A DNA stretch of 23,673 nt from a virus: positions 1 to 23,673 of IMG/VR virus record IMGVR_UViG_3300044695_006147. The stretch is one strand, 5' to 3'. The translations under genes were made by a program, and so were the position numbers. Positions 7,526 through 23,673 of the stretch are shown here, piece after piece; within the stretch, counting starts at the first letter, position 1, and every line of letters begins with the position of its first letter. The notes under the pieces were generated by a model. The model ran no database searches, was not told the origin of the DNA, and saw only the letters and a program-made list of their open reading frames with translations.

Positions 7526-8458
7526 TTATTTTTTAGTAGCTAAATCAATTTTAGCTTTGATTCTTAATTTTACTTCTTGGTTGTCAGGATTCAATAGATA
7601 ATTAATTGCATCTGTCAACTCTCCTAATTCTGCACCGTTGTCAAGTGTATATCTTTTGTCAGACTTACGAATGATAGCACCTGCTTCAACAGCTTCTTGT
7701 ACAAAGATACGCTCATCATATTGAGGATGATTTACAATCTCTAAGAAATATTTAGGATTAGTATCCACAATATTTAACACTTCACCTTTTAACCACTCTT
7801 CAGAAGCAGTAGCAGGAATAGTTCTACCTAGAGATTTAATAAATCCAATAGTAGATTTCTTACTGTTTGTAACTTCAGCAAATTTGATATAAGCTTGAGA
7901 TTTAACTGTTGCTTCTTCAAGTTTCTTAGTAGTTACTTTAGCTTCGTCAACCATCATAAATTCGTAAGTAGCTTTCAGTGTTCTATCTTCATAAGAAGGA
8001 GATATAGCTGATTTATTAGCTAATAGAATTAGATACTTTAACATATCTAAAGGTAGATTTAGATTAAGACTCATCCCTTCTTTTGTTAGAATAACTCTAC
8101 CTCTACGGTCAGTTCTCCAAAAGTTATTCTCTTGTTTTGACCAATTTAAATCTACTCCTAACTCTTTTTCAAAGAACTCTTTTTGAGTCATCCCGTTTGG
8201 ATGAGACTCCATATACTTTTGAATCTTTACACGCACTTGGTCGTCTAAGATTACTTTAACACCTCCTCCAAGATTTGCACTATTTAAAGGCACTTGAAAA
8301 GAACGTTTAACTTTGTTTAGTAGGAAAGGGTCTTTTGACTTATCTTGTCCTGCTACTAATAGGGTACTCCACTTCCCTCCTGATTCTACTGGTTTTACTG
8401 CAACAATTCTATTTTGTAAGAATGTACCGTAAACCACTTTTTCTGCTGTTTCTGTCAT
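7526..8458 (-). CDS. Capsid-region protein of unknown function (310 aa)
   Basis: I do not recognise a named family. The start is MTETAEKVVYGTFLQNRIVAVKPVESGGKW. Basic and aromatic patches follow (NKVKRSFQVPLNS, NNFWRTDRRGRVILT), then helical C-terminal parts (EEWLKGEVLNIVDTNPKYFLEIV, YDERIFVQEAVEAGAIIRKSDKRY). The mixture of charged residues without signal or membrane segment fits a soluble or virion-internal protein. It is the first gene after the capsid-gene terminator. It carries the same 16-nt leader as the scaffold-like gene, so both may be controlled alike. A head-completion or DNA-end role is possible but unsupported. Confidence 0.6.
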   Translation of the reverse strand: MTETAEKVVYGTFLQNRIVAVKPVESGGKWSTLLVAGQDKSKDPFLLNKVKRSFQVPLNSANLGGGVKVILDDQVRVKIQKYMESHPNGMTQKEFFEKELGVDLNWSKQENNFWRTDRRGRVILTKEGMSLNLNLPLDMLKYLILLANKSAISPSYEDRTLKATYEFMMVDEAKVTTKKLEEATVKSQAYIKFAEVTNSKKSTIGFIKSLGRTIPATASEEWLKGEVLNIVDTNPKYFLEIVNHPQYDERIFVQEAVEAGAIIRKSDKRYTLDNGAELGELTDAINYLLNPDNQEVKLRIKAKIDLATKK

Positions 8459-8538: not shown

Positions 8539-10050
8539 CTATCTTTCGATATTCAATCTAAGGTCTACAATTTTTGTAGGGTCTTCAATCATCAAACCTC
8601 CCCATTTTTGGAAGTGTACAGAGTATCCGTCAATTGGAGAAGCTACCATTTTTGGTGAACCTTTACCTGCAGGAGAGAAAGGGTCTCTCATACCTGGGAT
8701 ATATGCCCAATTGTAATCTGGAACTCCTTTAGGTTTAACACGGTAGATACCTGCGTTATCACCATAATCCAAAGCAAGGATTCTATGAGATTCTACTAAA
8801 CCTTTTCCATCAGGGTGACGTTGTGGGAAGTAAACATCATCATCAAAGAAATCAACGATTTCAACCATGATAACTACTCCGTTGTACCATTCGTACACGT
8901 TCCACTGTGGTTCCATTAAACCTTTAGTGTTTTTACCACCTAAGTTTCCTGGGTCAGTATTAGACATCAAGAATTTGTCAGAGATTACAGTAAATTTACC
9001 TGTTCCTGATTTAGCTTGAATTTGTTTAGAGATTTCGATAGCACCGAATTCACCTGTTAGCAAGTGGATAACACGTTTTCCACGCTCGATTTTACCAACA
9101 CCCATATCCAACAACAATTCTAAATGCCAATCAAGGTCATAAGTATTGTAGTAGTGTACGTTAGATGGAGCAATTTGCTCAAAGAAACCTGAACCTGATT
9201 CGATAGCATATTTAGTCTTGTCGTCTTTGTTCAAGTATTTGTGGTCAGCTGTCCAGTTTTTCTTACCGTACATCAACATACGAGCAAACATCTCTTCACA
9301 TTGGTGATGAGCAACTAAATCTTGGTAGTTAATCCAAATAGACTCTTGAGTCCCTTTGTAGTTAAATCCAAATTCTAATGGTTCATTTTTACCTTTGTTA
9401 ATAGTATTACCTGCTACTTCATATTCCATTCTCAATGTAGAAGGACGGTTTTCCATTCTCCAAGGAGATGTGAAGTAAGGCTTAGCACCTTGGTAAGATA
9501 ACGTAGAAGGAGACAAAGAGTAGAATTTAGACCAACGACCTCCTACAGCTAATTCCTCAGAAGGAACAGACATAGTAGAATTATCAGTTACTAATTCAAC
9601 TTCAAATTTGTAACGAGAACCAGCATCCATTGATTTTTTAACCAACAAGTGATAGTCATCAACTTCTCCTCTAAGAACGTTTGTTTCTTCAAACAAAGGT
9701 TCGTCAAAAATCAAATAGAAACGCTCTCCGTTAGCACCAACGTTAGCAGGGAAAGTTCCTCCTGAGATAGTACGTCCGTCAATTGTTTCAGCATCTACTA
9801 AAGGAAGATTTTTATCATGTTGTCCTTGCAACATCCAGTTGTAGAATCCATTCTCTTGTTCCACCTCTTTTACAGGGAAACGGTCTACGAATTCACGTAA
9901 TTTACCTTGTAGGTTAGTTTTGTAAATCTGTTTGATAACATTACTAATCAATTGAGGTTTTTGTTGATACAAAGCATGGAAGTGGTTGTCAGTAACCAAA
10001 CCATTGTAATCTACAGCTTCGTACTTTTGTAATGGAAGTAATTGAGCCAT
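8539..10050 (-). CDS. Putative major capsid protein (503 aa)
   Basis: This is the best candidate for the major capsid protein. It directly follows an acidic scaffold-like gene and the portal gene, has the ~500-aa size typical of crAss-like capsid proteins, and has its own terminator. Landmarks are MAQLLPLQKYEAVDYNGL at the start, NGFYNWMLQGQHDKNLPLVD near residue 67, ANVGANGERFYLIFDEPLFE near 103, and LLDMGVGKIERGKRVIHLLT near 312, a helix-plus-strand arrangement compatible with the HK97 fold. A conserved-looking C-terminal stretch (YNWAYIPGMRDPFSPAGKG) follows. The fold is inferred, since HK97 capsid proteins share almost no motifs. A long A-rich leader precedes the ATG. Confidence 0.75.
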   Translation of the reverse strand: MAQLLPLQKYEAVDYNGLVTDNHFHALYQQKPQLISNVIKQIYKTNLQGKLREFVDRFPVKEVEQENGFYNWMLQGQHDKNLPLVDAETIDGRTISGGTFPANVGANGERFYLIFDEPLFEETNVLRGEVDDYHLLVKKSMDAGSRYKFEVELVTDNSTMSVPSEELAVGGRWSKFYSLSPSTLSYQGAKPYFTSPWRMENRPSTLRMEYEVAGNTINKGKNEPLEFGFNYKGTQESIWINYQDLVAHHQCEEMFARMLMYGKKNWTADHKYLNKDDKTKYAIESGSGFFEQIAPSNVHYYNTYDLDWHLELLLDMGVGKIERGKRVIHLLTGEFGAIEISKQIQAKSGTGKFTVISDKFLMSNTDPGNLGGKNTKGLMEPQWNVYEWYNGVVIMVEIVDFFDDDVYFPQRHPDGKGLVESHRILALDYGDNAGIYRVKPKGVPDYNWAYIPGMRDPFSPAGKGSPKMVASPIDGYSVHFQKWGGLMIEDPTKIVDLRLNIER

Positions 10051-10087: not shown

Positions 10088-11257
10088 TTATTTTCTCTTT
10101 GTTGCATTCTCTAACATACTTAGGATACCTTCTGTTCTTTTAGAAGTTTCCACAGATGTGTTACGTCCTACCCCTCTTTGTTCTTCTGCTGCTATTACTT
10201 TATCAAGCTCGTTTACTGCTTGTGTTTTAGCAACTGCTTTAATTTTTGAAATGTCAGGTTTAAACTTACCTTCTTTATCTAAATTAAATAACCCTAATGT
10301 GTCATAATAGTTAATCAACATTTCAAACTCTACTGGGTTTCTTTGTTGTTTATACATTAAACTATTAAACTCTTTTCCTGTTTTAGGGTCCTTATGTACA
10401 GGATTCATAATGTTAGACTTTAGTTTATCTTTGGCAACTTTGTTAAGTTGTAGTCCATCAATAAATGCATCTCTGCTATCTACATTGTCTAACAGTTTCT
10501 GAAAAGCTTGTGTTTGTGCTTCTTGTTGTTGTTTTGTTAACTGTTCCTTATTAACTCTAGCCTGTTCGACAACTGCATTAGCTTGTTTCTTTAATTCAGG
10601 AATAGCTTTAACTGCTTTCTCTTCTAATTTATTAATTGCTTCTGCATCCTCAATCTGCTCTACTGCTTCTTCATGTGAGAAATTCTTAGCAATCAATTGG
10701 TCATAATAAATTTGTTTTTGAAGTTTAACATCTTCACGAACATCATCTTCAGAAATAGTATCAAAGAACTCTAATCGTTGTGCCATTAGGATAGCGTTGT
10801 CAGTATCATCAAATGCATCTTCTATTTCTAAGAATCTTTTCTTTGCAGGTGATAAACCTTGTTTCCAACTATCTTCTTTAGCTTTGAATTTTCCATCTAC
10901 TGTATCCTCCATCAATTTCTTAATGGTATCAAACGTACCTGGCAACTCATCTAATTTTTCTACATCTTCTACTGAAAGTATACCTGCCGTAACAAGTTCT
11001 TTCATTAATGCTTTATACTTGACTTCAGTAACATTCTCGTTAGAATGTTTTGTTTCATCAGTAGTAGTACTCGTAGGTTTAACCTCTTTTGTACTTGTTG
11101 TTGTTTCTTCATCTCCTCTTTCTGTAGTTACAGGTGTTAATTCAAAACCTTCGTTCTCCTCCGAAGTTGCTTCATCAGCTGTTTCTTCTTTACCTGCTAC
11201 TGCGGAATTTAATTCTTCTGGGGACATAATCTGTAGTCCTTCAAATAAATCTTCCAT
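10088..11257 (-). CDS. Putative capsid scaffolding protein (389 aa)
   Basis: The protein is strongly acidic and low-complexity at the N-terminus (ELNSAVAGKEETADEATSEE, then a Thr/Ser/Glu linker near residues 45-75). It then becomes a long helical, coiled-coil-prone segment (DAEAINKLEEKAVKAIPELKK, QLTKQQQEAQTQAFQKLLDN). It ends in a basic tail (TSKRTEGILSMLENATKRK). This acidic, coiled-coil, basic-tail layout between portal and capsid genes is the classic profile of a scaffolding protein, which guides capsid assembly and then leaves. No protease is visible in the window. The ATG follows the shared 16-nt leader element. Confidence 0.7.
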   Translation of the reverse strand: MEDLFEGLQIMSPEELNSAVAGKEETADEATSEENEGFELTPVTTERGDEETTTSTKEVKPTSTTTDETKHSNENVTEVKYKALMKELVTAGILSVEDVEKLDELPGTFDTIKKLMEDTVDGKFKAKEDSWKQGLSPAKKRFLEIEDAFDDTDNAILMAQRLEFFDTISEDDVREDVKLQKQIYYDQLIAKNFSHEEAVEQIEDAEAINKLEEKAVKAIPELKKQANAVVEQARVNKEQLTKQQQEAQTQAFQKLLDNVDSRDAFIDGLQLNKVAKDKLKSNIMNPVHKDPKTGKEFNSLMYKQQRNPVEFEMLINYYDTLGLFNLDKEGKFKPDISKIKAVAKTQAVNELDKVIAAEEQRGVGRNTSVETSKRTEGILSMLENATKRK

Positions 11258-19415: not shown

Positions 19416-20537
19416 ATGAATGTAGAAACCCTCAAAGAGATTAAATCTTTACTAGACTTAGGTGTCAGTAATGTAAGTGAAATTGGTAGAAGAGTTGCAG
19501 AAACTCTAGGAGTTGATTGCACTGATAGTTATCGAAGAACGATAGCAAACTATGTAAAAAAGATACAAGAACACCCTGCGTTGGCTCAAGAAACTATAGA
19601 TAAGGGATTAGATTTTAGTTCTATTAGGAGCTATTGGCATAAATCTAAACAGTTTAGTATTAGGAGTGATGTGAAGGAAAGCTTTAACTATGATGACTTT
19701 AGGGAAGACTTTTGCAACATGGTTGAAGGACTAGCTCCTAAACATTCTAAAGTAGTAAGAGATAAAATTGTTGATGGACACTGCTTACTAATAGACCCTG
19801 CAGACATACACATTAATAAATTGGCAAGTGCTTACGAAACTGGAGTAGAGTACAACAGTCAGATAGCAGTTATGAGAGTGTTTCAAGGTGTGGATGCTAC
19901 ATTAGATAAGAGTAGAGGATATAACATAGACAAGATTATATTAGTTGTAGGTAATGATGTGTTAAATACAGATACTATTAAAGGAACTACAACTAAGGGT
20001 ACAGAACAAGATACACATCTTAAATGGTTTGATGCATTTAGAATGGCTAAGCAAATGTATGTAGATATTATTGATAAGTTAATACAAGTTGCAGATGTAG
20101 AGGTAATATATAATGTAAGTAATCACGACCACATGAGTGGTTTCTTCTTAGCAGACTCCTTAGCTAGTTGGTATAGACAACATCCTAATGTAGAGTTTAA
20201 GAATTCTCCTAGTCATAGAAAGTATACTACATACGGTAAGAACTTAATAGGTACTACACACGGAGACGGAGCTAAACAAACAGACTTACCTTTATTGATG
20301 GCACATGAAGCAAGTGAATATTGGCACGATTGTAAACATAGATACATCTTTGGTCATCACGTACATCATAAAGTAAGTAAAGATTATATGAGTGTACAAT
20401 TTGAAACATTACGTTCTCCTAGTCCTGCTGATAGTTGGCATCACATTAAAGGGTATCAATATTCACCTTTATGTATAGAAGGATTTTTGTTCCACAAAGA
20501 GTTTGGACAAGTAGCTAGATTTACTACTATATTTTAA
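19416..20537 (+). CDS. HTH-metallophosphoesterase fusion protein (373 aa)
   Basis: The first ~50 residues look like a helix-turn-helix (LKEIKSLLDLGVSNVSEIGR, then RTIANYVKKIQ). Residues ~120-330 are a calcineurin-like metallophosphoesterase, with the metal ligands in order: D130 and H132 (DPADIH), GND with D181, N236-H237-D238 (SNHDH), H282 (THGDG) and GHHVHH at 313-318. Such enzymes hydrolyse phosphodiesters with two metal ions, the substrate being nucleic acid or nucleotide. The HTH suggests action on DNA or a link to the phage genome. It is the first plus-strand gene after the operator cluster, so probably an early gene. No Shine-Dalgarno precedes the ATG. Confidence 0.85.
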   Translation: MNVETLKEIKSLLDLGVSNVSEIGRRVAETLGVDCTDSYRRTIANYVKKIQEHPALAQETIDKGLDFSSIRSYWHKSKQFSIRSDVKESFNYDDFREDFCNMVEGLAPKHSKVVRDKIVDGHCLLIDPADIHINKLASAYETGVEYNSQIAVMRVFQGVDATLDKSRGYNIDKIILVVGNDVLNTDTIKGTTTKGTEQDTHLKWFDAFRMAKQMYVDIIDKLIQVADVEVIYNVSNHDHMSGFFLADSLASWYRQHPNVEFKNSPSHRKYTTYGKNLIGTTHGDGAKQTDLPLLMAHEASEYWHDCKHRYIFGHHVHHKVSKDYMSVQFETLRSPSPADSWHHIKGYQYSPLCIEGFLFHKEFGQVARFTTIF

Positions 20538-20711: not shown

Positions 20712-20753
20712 TCAAAAACACTTGACATTGTCATTTATTTTAGTTATGGGACG

Positions 20754-20845
20754 TACTATCACTGTAATGGTGCTTGGACTATCATTGCATGTTAGGTTAT
20801 TACTATCACTCTAATGATAGTAAGAGCCTACCAGGAATGGTAGTA
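20754..20845 (+). ncRNA. Predicted three-way-junction RNA
   Basis: Read by eye, 20754-20761 pairs with 20838-20845 (8 bp, one G-U) to close a domain. Inside are hairpin two, 20764-20771 with 20781-20788 (8 bp), and hairpin three, 20793-20798 with 20825-20830 continuing after one mismatch into 20800-20808 with 20815-20823 (9 bp, 6-nt loop). The strand is chosen because a U-run terminator follows on the plus strand. Several stems contain ACTATCA/TGATAGT, so DNA binding is an alternative explanation. Confidence 0.5.
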
Positions 20846-20862
20846 AAATCGTATAACTTGCT

Positions 20863-20886
20863 GATACATAGTTTTGTATCTTTTTT
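20863..20886 (+). terminator. Terminator-like hairpin with six U residues
   Basis: A 6-bp stem (20863-20868 with 20875-20880) and 6-nt loop are followed directly by TTTTTT. The stem has low GC but the U-run is ideal. It could end the transcript that includes the metallophosphoesterase gene and the three-way-junction RNA. Confidence 0.55.
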
Positions 20887-20895
20887 AGACTACTT

Positions 20896-20943
20896 ATAGG
20901 TAAACCTACAAGGTAGGTGTACGTTACCTATTCGTATGAATAG
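20896..20943 (+). ncRNA. Stem-loop pair with competing folds
   Basis: One fold pairs 20896-20903 with 20924-20931 and 20904-20909 with 20913-20918, leaving GTACG as a bulge. A second hairpin (20928-20933 with 20938-20943) uses four of the same bases, so the two folds cannot fully coexist. Confidence 0.4.
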
Positions 20944-21000: not shown

Positions 21001-21201
21001 ATACCCCTTCCTTACTACAACTATATTATTATACCCCCTGAGGTATAGAAATAGTATGTCTCACATATTTTATACCCCTACGGTATTATTTTTATATATT
21101 TTTTAAAGTTTAAGATGTCTTAATAGTGAGTACTATTATTTTTATACCCCCGTATTTTTTATGGTGTCTTAAAAGTGGTTAGCACCTAAACAACATACCC
21201 C
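21001..21201. repeat. Five ATACCCC repeats
   Basis: ATACCCC occurs at 21001, 21031, 21072, 21144 and 21195, the first four preceded by TT or TAT (GGGGTATAA on the minus strand). Four cytosines in a row are rare in this AT-rich genome, so five copies within 201 bp are unlikely by chance. Two copies sit in an imperfect longer repeat (21070-21130 and 21142-21177) that also shares TGTCTTAA-AGTG. Possible protein sites, iterons or minus-strand promoters. Confidence 0.55.
21121..21143 (+). terminator. Weak terminator-like hairpin
   Basis: A 7-bp AT-rich stem (21121-21127 with 21132-21138) with a GAGT loop is followed by TTTTT. With so few G-C pairs it may be only a partial terminator. Confidence 0.35.
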
Positions 21202-21205
21202 TACT

Positions 21206-21247
21206 AAAGTTGGGGCGGGGGAACGACTCCCCTGTTCATCAACTTTA
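21206..21247 (+). promoter_or_regulatory. Two-stem leader structure covering the start-box of the 103-aa gene
   Basis: 21206-21212 pairs with 21240-21246 (7 bp) and encloses a GGGG/CCCC stem (21218-21221 with 21229-21232) with the loop AACGACT. The outer stem includes the first bases of the CTTTAAAAC box. Folding could therefore hide the box from ribosome or polymerase and act as a switch. It does not match a riboswitch class I can name. Confidence 0.5.
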
Positions 21248-21251
21248 AAAC
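21243..21251 (+). promoter_or_regulatory. CTTTAAAAC start-box, gene 1 of the array
   Basis: The box lies 9 nt before the ATG at 21261. The same box is found before all five genes of the array (see 22243, 22492, 22912 and 23457) and not before the first two plus-strand genes. It may be a promoter element of a phage-specific polymerase or a translation-enhancing leader. Confidence 0.6.
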
Positions 21252-21260
21252 ATTTGAGAT

Positions 21261-21572
21261 ATGAAATTGAATTTAGAATTATTGGCAGGCATCGTTAAAA
21301 TTTACGGAACACCGTTATATTCATCAACACCAGAGACCGTAGCAGGTACCGTTAGTGCAGGAGAATATACGATATCCGAGAACACCTTAGTCCTAGAGAC
21401 AGAGGTAGGTACGATGTACATTCCGATTCGCTCAAGCAGAGTCGAAGCAGGGATTGACGAGACACAGTCTTTCACAATCGGAAGCTTCAGTGCTCTTCGT
21501 GATGCAAGCGGTGAGTACAACGGTGTTGCATGGTCCGTGAAGCAAGGCGAAGCAAAGGCATTTGCGTATTAA
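21261..21572 (+). CDS. Small beta-rich protein of unknown function (103 aa)
   Basis: The protein (MKLNLELLAGIVKIYGTPLY, then GEYTISENTLVLETEVGTMY and ETQSFTIGSFSALRDASGEY) is beta-rich, soluble and of unknown family. Its DNA is clearly richer in G and C than the surrounding small genes (codons such as GTC, CTC, ACC), which suggests different origin or selection for high expression. It stands alone between a structured leader and a very strong UUCG terminator, as expected of an abundantly made protein. Confidence 0.65.
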   Translation: MKLNLELLAGIVKIYGTPLYSSTPETVAGTVSAGEYTISENTLVLETEVGTMYIPIRSSRVEAGIDETQSFTIGSFSALRDASGEYNGVAWSVKQGEAKAFAY

Positions 21573-21600
21573 CAACAGCACCCTTCGGGGTGTTTTTGTT
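21571..21600 (+). terminator. UUCG-tetraloop intrinsic terminator
   Basis: A long stem runs from 21571 to 21600 around a C(UUCG)G tetraloop (21583-21588). It has seven pairs near the loop, one mismatch, then five more, and U-rich sequence sits in the 3' arm. It overlaps the stop codon of the 103-aa gene by two bases. Confidence 0.85.
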
Positions 21601-21841
21601 ATTCCTTATGCTTCTAGTAGTAGACTATTTATAATCTACTACTAATACTCTACTTCAGCAGTCATATTGCTATGCTTGCATAGTAATATTAGTCTAATTA
21701 CTAACACTTAACTGATTCATTATGAATTTATTAGTTGTTGTTAATGGTGTTGTTACTACCCTAGATTGGATAGTAAACACCAACGCATAACATGCGTGAT
21801 AAGCCATAACAGTAAAAAGTTATGGCTTAATAGAAATTAAA

Positions 21842-21998
21842 TACTCTCATCCAAGCAGGATATTATATACTCAAATGATATAATTAATTTACTAATGACA
21901 ACTTGTCTGTTGGAGAACAGTGCATCTATTACATAGAAAAGAAATAAGTTGGGAAAATCAAAAGTAAATTATACAAGGGTTGCAACCTTGTGAGAGTA
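21842..21998 (+). ncRNA. Predicted multi-branched RNA of 157 nt
   Basis: The outer stem pairs 21842-21849 with 21991-21998 (8 bp). Inside are a 7-bp hairpin (21862-21868 with 21878-21884), a 9-bp stem (21885-21893 with 21963-21971) and a 5-bp hairpin (21974-21978 with 21986-21990). The 9-bp stem holds a 6-bp stem (21899-21904 with 21946-21951), which in turn contains a GGAG-loop hairpin (21907-21920) and a small hairpin (21926-21936). Six nested or adjacent stems in 157 nt look designed rather than random. No tRNA or named RNA family was recognised. Confidence 0.5.
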
Positions 21999-22144
21999 CA
22001 AAACAAAGGGATTTTAATGTAGTGTCTTTTATTCCCTTACTCTGTTTAACCAACAGATAATTAAAGACCGTGGTAGATTGTGTGATAATACTGTGGTGGT
22101 ATTAGTGAAACAATCAGAGAACGATAGCTACGAATAACAGCTTG

Positions 22145-22201
22145 TGTAGTGCTTATGTTAAAACTACATTAACTAGCTTAGTAGTGCTTATAACAAACTA
22201 C
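22145..22201 (+). repeat. Direct repeat GTAGTGCTTAT forming two tandem hairpins
   Basis: The 11-mer occurs at 22146-22156 and 22181-22191. Each copy is followed by AAACTAC, so both can form a hairpin (22145-22150 with 22163-22168, and 22181-22185 with 22197-22201). This looks like a duplicated RNA module. Confidence 0.5.
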
Positions 22202-22202
22202 T

Positions 22203-22236
22203 TAATAGACTACTCTTTAATTAGAGTAGTCTATTA
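22203..22236 (+). terminator. 14-bp perfect hairpin upstream of the 68-aa gene
   Basis: 22203-22216 pairs with 22223-22236 around a TTAATT loop. There is no long U-run, so it may be an RNA processing or stability element rather than a true terminator. The next gene's start-box begins 7 nt later. Confidence 0.5.
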
Positions 22237-22242
22237 TTAACT

Positions 22243-22251
22243 CTTTAAAAC
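22243..22251 (+). promoter_or_regulatory. CTTTAAAAC start-box, gene 2 of the array
   Basis: The box is followed by AAACAATA and then the ATG at 22260. Confidence 0.6.
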
Positions 22252-22259
22252 AAACAATA

Positions 22260-22466
22260 ATGTATACTCAAAAAACTATCAATGAAAATCTCTTTTCACC
22301 TGAATTTTGTATTGTTGCAAAATATCTAAACTTTAAGAGAGTTGCAGGTTTTGAGAAATTTTTAAGACAAATGAATCCTAATAATAGAATCGCCTATGGT
22401 GTTAAATTTATTAGAGTTCATCGACTTCTTAAAGAAATCGAAAGCCTTAAAAGAAGTGAACAATAG
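22260..22466 (+). CDS. Small basic protein of unknown function (68 aa)
   Basis: The protein (MYTQKTINENLFSPEFCIVA, then FKRVAGFEKFLRQMNPNNRI and a Lys/Arg-rich end) is basic and mostly helical, so nucleic acid binding is possible. No family is recognised. The ATG follows a start-box. The stop codon TAG sits in the loop of an 8-bp hairpin shared with the 3' end. Confidence 0.6.
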   Translation: MYTQKTINENLFSPEFCIVAKYLNFKRVAGFEKFLRQMNPNNRIAYGVKFIRVHRLLKEIESLKRSEQ

Positions 22467-22480
22467 TAGCTTCTTTTTTA
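22449..22480 (+). terminator. Hairpin terminator overlapping the stop of the 68-aa gene
   Basis: An 8-bp stem (22449-22456 with 22470-22477) is followed by TTATTTTATT. It holds the stop codon in its loop, so translating ribosomes would disrupt it. Confidence 0.55.
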
Positions 22481-22491
22481 TTTTATTAAAT

Positions 22492-22500
22492 CTTTAAAAC
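22492..22500 (+). promoter_or_regulatory. CTTTAAAAC start-box, gene 3 of the array
   Basis: The box is followed by AAACAAT and the ATG at 22508. Confidence 0.6.
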
Positions 22501-22507
22501 AAACAAT

Positions 22508-22765
22508 ATGAAAACAAATTTTAAAACATTACCATCAAATCCTCTAAATGGAGGTGTTCAATTTCACTTTAAAGCTGATAATGGATATGGTGCATCTATT
22601 GTTCAACATGAGTTTTCTTATGGATACAATCAAGGTCTATGGGAATTAGCAGTAATTGGTAAAGAAGGTCAAATTGACTACACTACTCCTATTACTGATG
22701 ATGTATTAGGATATTTGTCTGAGGAAGAAGTGAACGCAACACTTGATAAAATTGCAACATTGTAA
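22508..22765 (+). CDS. Small conserved phage-type protein of unknown function (85 aa)
   Basis: The protein reads MKTNFKTLPSNPLNGGVQFH, then DNGYGASIVQHEFSYG and LWELAVIGKEGQIDYTTPIT, ending DDVLGYLSEEEVNATLDKIA. The layout NGYGASVV-H-YSYG...LWELAV...TPITDDV is, from memory, a widespread small hypothetical protein of phages and their hosts. Function is unknown. A hairpin overlaps its stop codon and a structured RNA follows. Confidence 0.7.
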   Translation: MKTNFKTLPSNPLNGGVQFHFKADNGYGASIVQHEFSYGYNQGLWELAVIGKEGQIDYTTPITDDVLGYLSEEEVNATLDKIATL

Positions 22766-22777
22766 GTTTACAATGTT
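22756..22777 (+). terminator. Hairpin across the stop codon of the 85-aa gene
   Basis: A 9-bp stem (22756-22764 with 22769-22777) with a 4-nt loop includes the end of the coding region and part of the stop codon. No U-run of terminator quality follows, so partial termination or mRNA 3'-end protection is more likely. Confidence 0.4.
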
Positions 22778-22788
22778 TAACTTAACAT

Positions 22789-22899
22789 AAACAAGCAGAG
22801 TACATTGTACTAACTTATCTGTGCTTTTGGAGTAATTACCAAAAGTGGGAACTGGGAGCAGAGAGTGTATACATTTCATGGGTATACACCTGCTTGTTT
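22789..22899 (+). ncRNA. Predicted four-way-junction RNA of 111 nt
   Basis: A 10-bp stem (22789-22798 with 22890-22899) closes a domain with three hairpins: a weak 4-bp one (22800-22810), a 7-bp one (22824-22830 with 22839-22845) and an 8-bp one (22865-22872 with 22882-22889). The linker GGGAACTGGGAGCAGAGA between the last two is purine-rich and unpaired. It is cloverleaf-like but lacks the T-arm and anticodon signature of tRNA. U-rich sequence and a start-box follow it. Confidence 0.55.
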
Positions 22900-22911
22900 T
22901 TATTTTATAAT

Positions 22912-22920
22912 CTTTAAAAC
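22912..22920 (+). promoter_or_regulatory. CTTTAAAAC start-box, gene 4 of the array
   Basis: The box is followed by AAAACAAT and the ATG at 22929. Confidence 0.6.
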
Positions 22921-22928
22921 AAAACAAT

Positions 22929-23336
22929 ATGAAAGTATTAATAAACGATTGCTATGGAGGATATGGTATTAGCTTAGAAGCTGAACAATTATACCTTCAG
23001 AAAAAAGGAATTTCTTATGAACTTCTTGAAGAAAAATTTGGTGTAGGTAAATATCTAATAAATGGTAAAGAAACTTATCTTCAACTTAGAAGAGATGACC
23101 AAGTTCTTATAGAAGTATTTGAAGAAATTGGTTCTGAAAGAGCATCAGGTATTCATGCAGAATTATCAATTTCTGAAATACCAGATGGAGCAGATTATTC
23201 TATGCATGAATATGATGGAATAGAACATATTGATAACACATGGTTCACTTTTACAGCTGAAGAACTTAAAAATGGTTTATCAGATGAACAGTTAGAACTT
23301 GTAAGTCAAGTATCTTGTATTAAAGTAGAGTATTAA
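22929..23336 (+). CDS. Conserved phage protein of unknown function, CYGGYG family (135 aa)
   Basis: The start MKVLINDCYGGYGISLEAEQ and the later blocks LRRDDQVLIEVFEEIGSERA and EIPDGADYSMHEYDGIEHI match a small protein found in many phages and some bacteria ('K-INxCYGGFGLS ... R-D--L--VVEELG--A-G ... IPD-xDY-I-EYDG-E'), recalled from experience. Its function is unknown. The protein is acidic, soluble and full length. It lies between two structured RNAs and follows a start-box. Confidence 0.78.
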   Translation: MKVLINDCYGGYGISLEAEQLYLQKKGISYELLEEKFGVGKYLINGKETYLQLRRDDQVLIEVFEEIGSERASGIHAELSISEIPDGADYSMHEYDGIEHIDNTWFTFTAEELKNGLSDEQLELVSQVSCIKVEY

Positions 23337-23341
23337 CCATT

Positions 23342-23448
23342 TAATGTTGTAATAGCAAGCTTAAATAACTTGTGAAGACTATTGTATGCTCATGTGACAG
23401 TGGAGGAAGATGGATGACCACCTAGAGTACAATAGAATTACAACATTA
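23342..23448 (+). ncRNA. Predicted multi-branched RNA of 107 nt
   Basis: A 12-bp perfect stem (23342-23353 with 23437-23448) closes the domain. Inside are a small 4-bp hairpin (23356-23372) and a long arm, 23379-23386 with 23428-23435 (8 bp), then 23389-23391 with 23425-23427, then 23400-23403 with 23418-23421. The purine-rich tip resembles the unpaired purine run of the RNA at 22789. It begins 5 bp after the stop of the 135-aa gene and ends 8 nt before the next start-box. Confidence 0.55.
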
Positions 23449-23456
23449 TATATTAA

Positions 23457-23464
23457 TTTAAAAC
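23457..23464 (+). promoter_or_regulatory. TTTAAAAC start-box, gene 5 of the array
   Basis: The leading C of the other copies is A here. It is followed by TATATTT and the ATG at 23472. Confidence 0.5.
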
Positions 23465-23471
23465 TATATTT

Positions 23472-23673
23472 ATGATTAAAGTAACTAAACAAGAAGCAAT
23501 TGATAAATTACTTGCTAATAACTATAGAGCAATTGAAATTCTTCAAACATACGACCATGATGGTGAAGATGAAGATATATTTGTTACTATGGCTTATGTA
23601 GATAAATCACATAAACATGTACCATTAAAAGTGTTAAAACAAAACATGGATATGTATGATTTTATATACATAG
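23472..23673 (+). CDS. Small protein of unknown function, cut by the window edge (67 residues visible)
   Basis: An open frame from the ATG at 23472 reads MIKVTKQEAIDKLLANNYRA, then an acidic stretch (YDHDGEDEDIFVTM) and VPLKVLKQNMDMYDFIY to the right edge without a stop. The last base is the first base of the next codon. No family is recognised. The start-box and the structured RNA before it mark it as the fifth member of the array. Confidence 0.65.
   Translation, partial: MIKVTKQEAIDKLLANNYRAIEILQTYDHDGEDEDIFVTMAYVDKSHKHVPLKVLKQNMDMYDFIYI

Follow-up and report, generated by a model that had tools for sequence, protein, structure and literature searches.

The right end of a virus record of 23,673 bases (IMG/VR record IMGVR_UViG_3300044695_006147, here called the window, meaning the whole stretch) carries an accessory-gene zone in which short protein genes alternate, on one strand, with exchangeable structured RNA modules. 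Judged by strong covariation, two of the module classes, B and H, are conserved RNA folds with a constant core round a variable peripheral domain; B lies in the window, as does a third class, A, while H is found in related phages. With moderate confidence, these modules are read as interchangeable RNA-processing beads which would cut or delimit a long transcript between the small genes, and A, B and H probably include one or more self-cleaving ribozymes. An earlier note on this DNA, made from its letters alone, had proposed a cassette-like system of small genes and RNA elements, and the results below bear on several of its claims. Labels of the form L### denote loci and those of the form G### whole records; the terminase relatives of the window (64-86% identity) were retrieved as loci L041-L120.

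The type-B RNA consists of an 8-bp stem P1, a constant strand TCCAA(GC or TTGC)AGG, a variable insert, mostly about 35-130 nucleotides (nt) long, and a 5-bp hairpin with the loop RTTGCAA. A short block of the window copy (21974-22002) recurs in more than 100 loci, a scan of IMG/VR with AAGGNTTGCAACCTTGTGAGAG yielded at least 119 stretches, and in the retrieved loci the partner strand CTCTCATCCAA was present upstream in 144 of 150 B matches, while 84,980 GTDB species genomes held no exact match. Standard pairs made up 98%, and compensatory change affected 8 of 13 pairs (25 cells), which was matched by none of 500 shuffles; since the scan fixed one P1 strand and most of the hairpin, secondary copies within these loci account for much of this variation. 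Pairing is, moreover, conceivable between the loop sequence TGCAA and TTGCA in the constant strand; by eye, the two change together in L146 (TTGTA/TACAG) and L087 (TTACA/TGTAA), pointing to a possible pseudoknot. Phages that carry B include ones of 88 kb, whose terminase is window-like, as well as ones of 100-123 kb with a terminase about one-third identical over part of its length.

Class H has the form TGCACCATT-hairpin-CAGTTGTAAT-insert-ATTACAACTGAGTGCAGAGGGG and is present in related phages and in L035, its model recognizing 57 places in 74 loci. The hairpin exists in fully compensated versions (CTCAC/GTGAG, CCTGA/TCAGG, TCTAC/GTAGA and CTATC/GATAG), compensatory change (64 cells) affects 9 of the 24 pairs, and 96% of cells retain a pseudoknot TCCC/GGGR. 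The H pattern gave 15 matches in GTDB genomes, one of which is supported by the H model (L265:1-103, at one end of the 4.6-kb contig RFNS01000086.1); this sole H-like match in a species genome comes from a bin labelled as an alphaproteobacterial metagenome-assembled genome and is possibly a misbinned phage contig. In some H copies (L229:7094-7526 and 7888-8183; L159:6782-7079) the core hairpin has another constant module nested in it, CACGTGGATATAAAGACTTCTTG ... AAGATGTGAAACCACAAT, and tandem partial H copies are also seen, as in L229 and L159. The B insert of L121 (about 9030-9150) and the H insert of L202 (about 10128-10248) contain T-arm-like sequences (GTGGTTCAAATCCAC and AGGTTCAAATCCT, respectively), as if a fragment of a transfer RNA (tRNA) had become a peripheral domain, and ARAGORN finds no tRNA there.

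Type A shows the same design of shell plus insert. Covariation lends its predicted fold modest support, with 28 pairs kept at 99% and two compensatory changes in four sequences, a result that 37 of 500 shuffles equal; the energy of the fold (23337-23455, z -1.35) is not significant alone, and its support comes from comparison. The type-A strand was found in 15 IMG/VR stretches, and among the matches listed the element lies only on the contigs of L035, L104/L173 and L210, the other listed matches being unrelated conserved sequence. None of A, B and H matches an Rfam family. The earlier note had named a lack of covarying pairs among homologues as the result that would speak against its idea; B and its sister class H covary clearly and A modestly, and the idea is not refuted on that count.

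Known ribozymes stand in sister arrays. Rfam models located Hatchet in L128 and Pistol in L219, both in arrays that also contain B and H; Pistol was found this once, in an intergenic stretch shared with B and H. Ten Hatchet copies (L128 and nine others), some of them from near-identical contigs, each precede a B on the same strand by 498-1367 nt. In L128 and L221 the DNA just 5′ of Hatchet (up to 93 nt, 84-95% identical) is the same neighbour that stands ahead of B in L139, L162 and L219, and a second neighbour precedes Hatchet in L200 and B in L137 and L172. By the same measure of a common 5′ neighbour, slot sharing is seen in 8 pairs for B with H and in 5 for A with H. Because of these shared slots, A, B, H and Hatchet are regarded as interchangeable occupants of the same positions. 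Of the roles that the earlier note had offered for its elements, to insulate, process or control each gene, processing is favoured by the presence of Hatchet and Pistol in sister arrays; self-cleavage is considered likely for at least one class of the modules.

The modules are also exchanged. L104/L173 and L210 contain fold A by itself. One family of B inserts (14 copies) was found in 10 different 5′ and 9 different 3′ contexts, and one 3′ context of B, the recurrent module GAAAGGACGTGATATTCGTCGTATACCTGAGCATGTAGACAAACTGCTCAT (15 copies, e.g., in L041, L104 and L213), stands behind 11 inserts. The insert, the 5′ neighbour and the 3′ neighbour of B are, judging from these contexts, reshuffled between phages, and homologous recombination within constant regions is the probable route. 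These results support the earlier idea of cassettes with RNA elements between one gene and the next, in that A and B are conserved, the borders of the units are exact and the elements replace one another in slots. Between the noncoding DNA of the window and its relatives, exchanged blocks have sharp ends at element and box borders, which would also suit elements acting at the DNA level, as recombination hot spots or single-strand hairpin promoters whose RNA fold is incidental, and hairpins with 3-nt loops do stand before early genes in L035 and G016. Such a role is nevertheless highly improbable, as the stems of B and H tolerate G-U pairs, a sign of RNA and not of a single fixed DNA strand, their slots are exchanged with an RNA ribozyme family, and B and H are unlike the triloop hairpins. 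The latter are found at L035:2660-5050 and at about 88-89 kb of G016 (minus strand), where every small gene stands behind a hairpin of 4-6 bp closed by a loop of 3 nt (GTCC-TTC-GGAC, GCCC-TTC-GGGC, GTGC-TGC-GCAC and GCAC-TGC-GTGC in L035, about 55 nt before the start; GCATGC-TAC-GCATGC and GCAGAC-TTC-GTCTGC in G016) with a constant A+T-rich tail, and they resemble hairpin promoters of the type used by the N4 virion RNA polymerase.

With regard to function, B lies on the same strand as its neighbouring genes in 193 of 201 cases and H in 57 of 59, while the distance from B to the next start has a median of 306 nt (range 29-1559 nt) with shuffled neighbour types. The sense orientation without a fixed gene distance argues for transcribed RNA and not for a leader switch; a riboswitch or fixed 5′ leader was rejected, as B keeps no constant short distance and the type of the downstream gene is not fixed. 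Control of downstream genes in cis more generally, by terminators, leader switches or stabilizers of messenger RNA ends, one per small gene, is improbable. It would agree with the intergenic sense placement, with the 13% of B and 36% of H that lie at most 60 nt before a start, and with T-run hairpins such as 21576-21600, which resemble ordinary terminators; however, B stands far from the next start, before differing genes and modules, and B, H and A have no closing T run and possess constant cores that are conserved to a much greater degree than terminators.

The main rival is a trans-acting role of the diversified inserts, in which phage RNAs would serve as decoys, sponges, antisense RNAs or ligands of host proteins, with the core as scaffold, the insert as an effector diversified in an arms race, and Hatchet and Pistol merely trimming. 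The large, structured inserts of B, which form 54 clusters in one shell, speak for this role, as do the several RNA modules that follow one another without an intervening gene and their lack of a fixed gene tie. It is still considered unlikely, since the B and H shells share no inserts, contrary to a portable cargo (inserts as common cargo moved among shells were rejected on this ground), and since the Hatchet copies here also have variable peripheral domains.

Processing of the transcript by the modules is the preferred reading, and two precedents accord with it. Pistol, Hatchet and twister sister were found via their association with other ribozymes and phage genes (PMC4604425), and theta ribozymes, which are HDV-like (hepatitis delta virus) and occur in gut phages of Bacteroidota, are thought to process phage RNA and tRNAs (PMC10879173). 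As for the marks of small ribozymes, a core of covarying stems is present in B and H and modestly in A, together with ribozyme association and slot exchange. Cutting would release single-gene messages and free pieces of RNA. A bolder version, that A, B and H are three new self-cleaving ribozyme classes forming with Hatchet and Pistol a traded punctuation set in Bacteroidota phages, is put forward only tentatively. The distribution of Hatchet also favours a role in processing: of the 50 records in the B set, a few of which lack B, 7 contain Hatchet, versus none of 50 non-B records (Fisher p 0.012), a contrast that is only indicative because the non-B set is shorter in total. Several observations weigh against such a role. 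The window itself contains neither Hatchet nor Pistol, Rfam searches of it giving nothing credible either at the gathering score or with E values as high as 5, and a search with the H model with filters off gave a best score of 12 bits, which is noise. Most B and H copies share one stem version because the samples were picked by sequence. Moreover, RAGATH-18, found by a similar logic of association, proved to be a TnpB guide RNA (PMC11061315).

The features of the window are collected in Table 1. Folds stronger than shuffled sequence were found in most gaps (21573-21720, z -4.1; 22140-22242, z -4.3; 21780-22242, z -5.7; 22766-22911, z -3.4), largely in agreement with the earlier claim of a fold in each gap; one exception is the gap 22467-22507 between the 68- and 85-amino-acid (aa) genes, which has no fold of its own (minimum free energy of 0 for 22467-22491), only a terminator-like hairpin extending back into the 68-aa gene. 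The single fold assumed before the 68-aa gene proved too simple, as this 687-nt gap has several elements, and a further covarying element, M1, falls outside the interval first drawn for the array. M1 shows about 80% DNA identity in five relatives, where it is noncoding, and its consensus fold of 51 pairs has 11 with kept double-sided changes among six sequences. The leader M2 is conserved in about 20 relatives and shows no double-sided change, and it was rejected as a covarying RNA. The module starting at 22000 is 88.5% identical in L169 (to 22162), 78% in L122 (to 22172) and 81% in L129 (to 22109), and it also stands behind other B inserts. No relative of fold C was found, so that energy is its sole support. 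The surroundings of the possible micro-ORF (open reading frame), 21744-21804, are conserved in more than 10 relatives.

Table 1. Features at the right end of the window.
Feature	Position	Strand	Details
M1, multi-branched RNA-like element with a hairpin behind	20742..20918	+	between exonuclease operon and array
M2 leader (GTGGTTAGCACC, ACCCCTACTAAA, G-rich/C-rich hairpin)	21175..21240	+	before 103-aa gene; energy z -2.3
Box CTTTAAAAC before gene 1	21243..21251	+	general A-rich start signal
Small gene 1, 103 aa	21261..21572	+	relatives in many sister phages
Probable intrinsic terminator of gene 1 (GCACCCTTCGGGGTGT and T run)	21576..21600	+	predicted fold
Possible 22-aa micro-ORF (MNLLVVVNGVVTTLDWIVNTNA)	21722..21790	+	read from sequence; strong hairpin 21801-21830 behind
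Type-B RNA	21842..21998	+	P1 21842-21849/21991-21998; constant strand TCCAAGCAGG; variable insert; hairpin 21974-21978/21986-21990, loop GTTGCAA
Exchangeable noncoding module directly 3′ of B	22000..22172	+	
14-bp perfect hairpin before box of gene 2	22203..22236	+	inverted repeat I4; fold z -4.3
Box and small gene 2, 68 aa	22243..22466	+	gene 22260-22466; homologues in L035 (by eye), L055, L056
Box and small gene 3, 85 aa	22492..22765	+	gene 22508-22765; phrog_4074
Fold C, closed and multi-branched	22784..22904	+	arms 22784-22798/22890-22904; inverted repeat I8; z -3.4
Exchange unit: box, 135-aa gene and fold A	22909..23450	+	96% identical in L035, flanks unrelated on both sides
Small gene 4, 135 aa	22929..23336	+	phrog_16527
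Type-A RNA: closing stem, small hairpin, inner stem, variable tip	23342..23448	+	4 distinct members
Box ATTTAAAAC and gene 5, exchange unit	23446..23673	+	gene from 23472 to contig end; 92% identical in L208 from 23446

The five ORFs of the earlier note (103, 68, 85, 135 and more than 67 aa, with starts at 21261, 22260, 22508, 22929 and 23472, all on the plus strand) were recovered, as were the (C)TTTAAAAC boxes ahead of them. CTTTAAAAC has exactly four copies in the 23.7-kb window, all on the plus strand (21243, 22243, 22492 and 22912) and 7-9 nt before the start codon, and the box of the fifth gene reads ATTTAAAAC at 23456. A first-order Markov model expects 0.03 copies in the 2474-nt array, and at least four were seen in none of 2000 simulations; the exact pattern of box plus spacer had no match in IMG/VR. 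TTAAAA stands at most 22 nt from the start in 10 of 26 window genes, late genes of the other strand included, versus 2.1 expected, and in two relatives it precedes 21 of 87 and 21 of 89 starts versus about 8 expected, while AGGAG was found upstream of none of the 26 window genes. In Flavobacterium johnsoniae, an A-run at -14 to -11 with A at -3 and -6 replaces Shine-Dalgarno pairing (PMC6847099). Because the TTAAAA signal is genome-wide and agrees with this initiation region, the TTTAAAAC box is a strong, uniform copy of the A-rich start region on which Bacteroidota ribosomes ordinarily rely, and its earlier reading as a special part of the system is not supported.

None of the small proteins matched Pfam above the cut-off, small gene 1 had no PHROG or Pfam family over the cut-off, and the 68-aa protein had no confirmed relative in IMG/VR. 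Distant relatives of the 135-aa protein, with 37-41% identity, occur in phages of Acinetobacter, Vibrio and Edwardsiella, indicating an accessory gene that travels far outside Bacteroidota phages.

The window is the terminal part of a crAss-like phage contig, and the array sits at the contig end. The large terminase shares 33% identity with its counterpart in Cellulophaga phage phi14:2 and shows a weak relationship to those of crAss-like and Flavobacterium phages, and terminase, portal and major head protein fall into PHROG head-and-packaging families. The structural genes run leftward from about 19.3 kb, while an exonuclease-like gene (19416-20537) and the small genes of the array run rightward. 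In whole relatives, noncoding gaps cluster in one stretch (e.g., 23.0-28.7 kb of the 88-kb record G001), of which the array is the beginning and which may be expressed early. Among named phages, the region had no DNA match and the B and H cores no credible match, and neither ARAGORN nor Rfam found a tRNA in the window.

If this reading is true, at least two well-supported and widespread phage RNA classes are new to Rfam (B by the IMG/VR scan, H by its model), and ribozymes such as Hatchet gain a natural setting, in which they punctuate arrays of small phage genes. The modules may be new RNA scissors or processing signals chopping viral messages into single-gene pieces; they provide testable ribozyme candidates, each with a constant portion of about 45-85 nucleotides, and document how RNA modules recombine like beads. 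Intergenic ribozyme-like RNAs of phages are known, while the modular setting and the classes are new. No account of such arrays was found in the papers searched, and B or H might nonetheless have been listed before as an unnamed motif.

Compared with known systems, the box is accounted for by the A-rich initiation region of Bacteroidota, with an A-run at about -9 to -14, A at -3/-6 and no Shine-Dalgarno sequence (PMC6847099), although, unlike in the general start region, it is unusually uniform among these early small genes. RAGATH motifs are likewise structured RNAs recognized by the company of known ribozymes or their genes (PMC11061315); in the comparison with Rfam, A, B and H have no match, and identity with an unlisted motif is possible. 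Theta ribozymes are also ribozyme-type elements in Bacteroidota phages, but they stand at tRNA 3′ ends, whereas A, B and H stand between small protein genes in a setting where the window has no tRNA (PMC10879173). Closest are Hatchet (RF02678) and Pistol (RF02679), although A, B and H, as candidates for cleavage only, have sequences and secondary structures of their own. Like A, B and H, both combine a small conserved core with variable peripheral stems, are intergenic and phage-associated, and share arrays with these elements in sister phages, Hatchet in the very slots of B.

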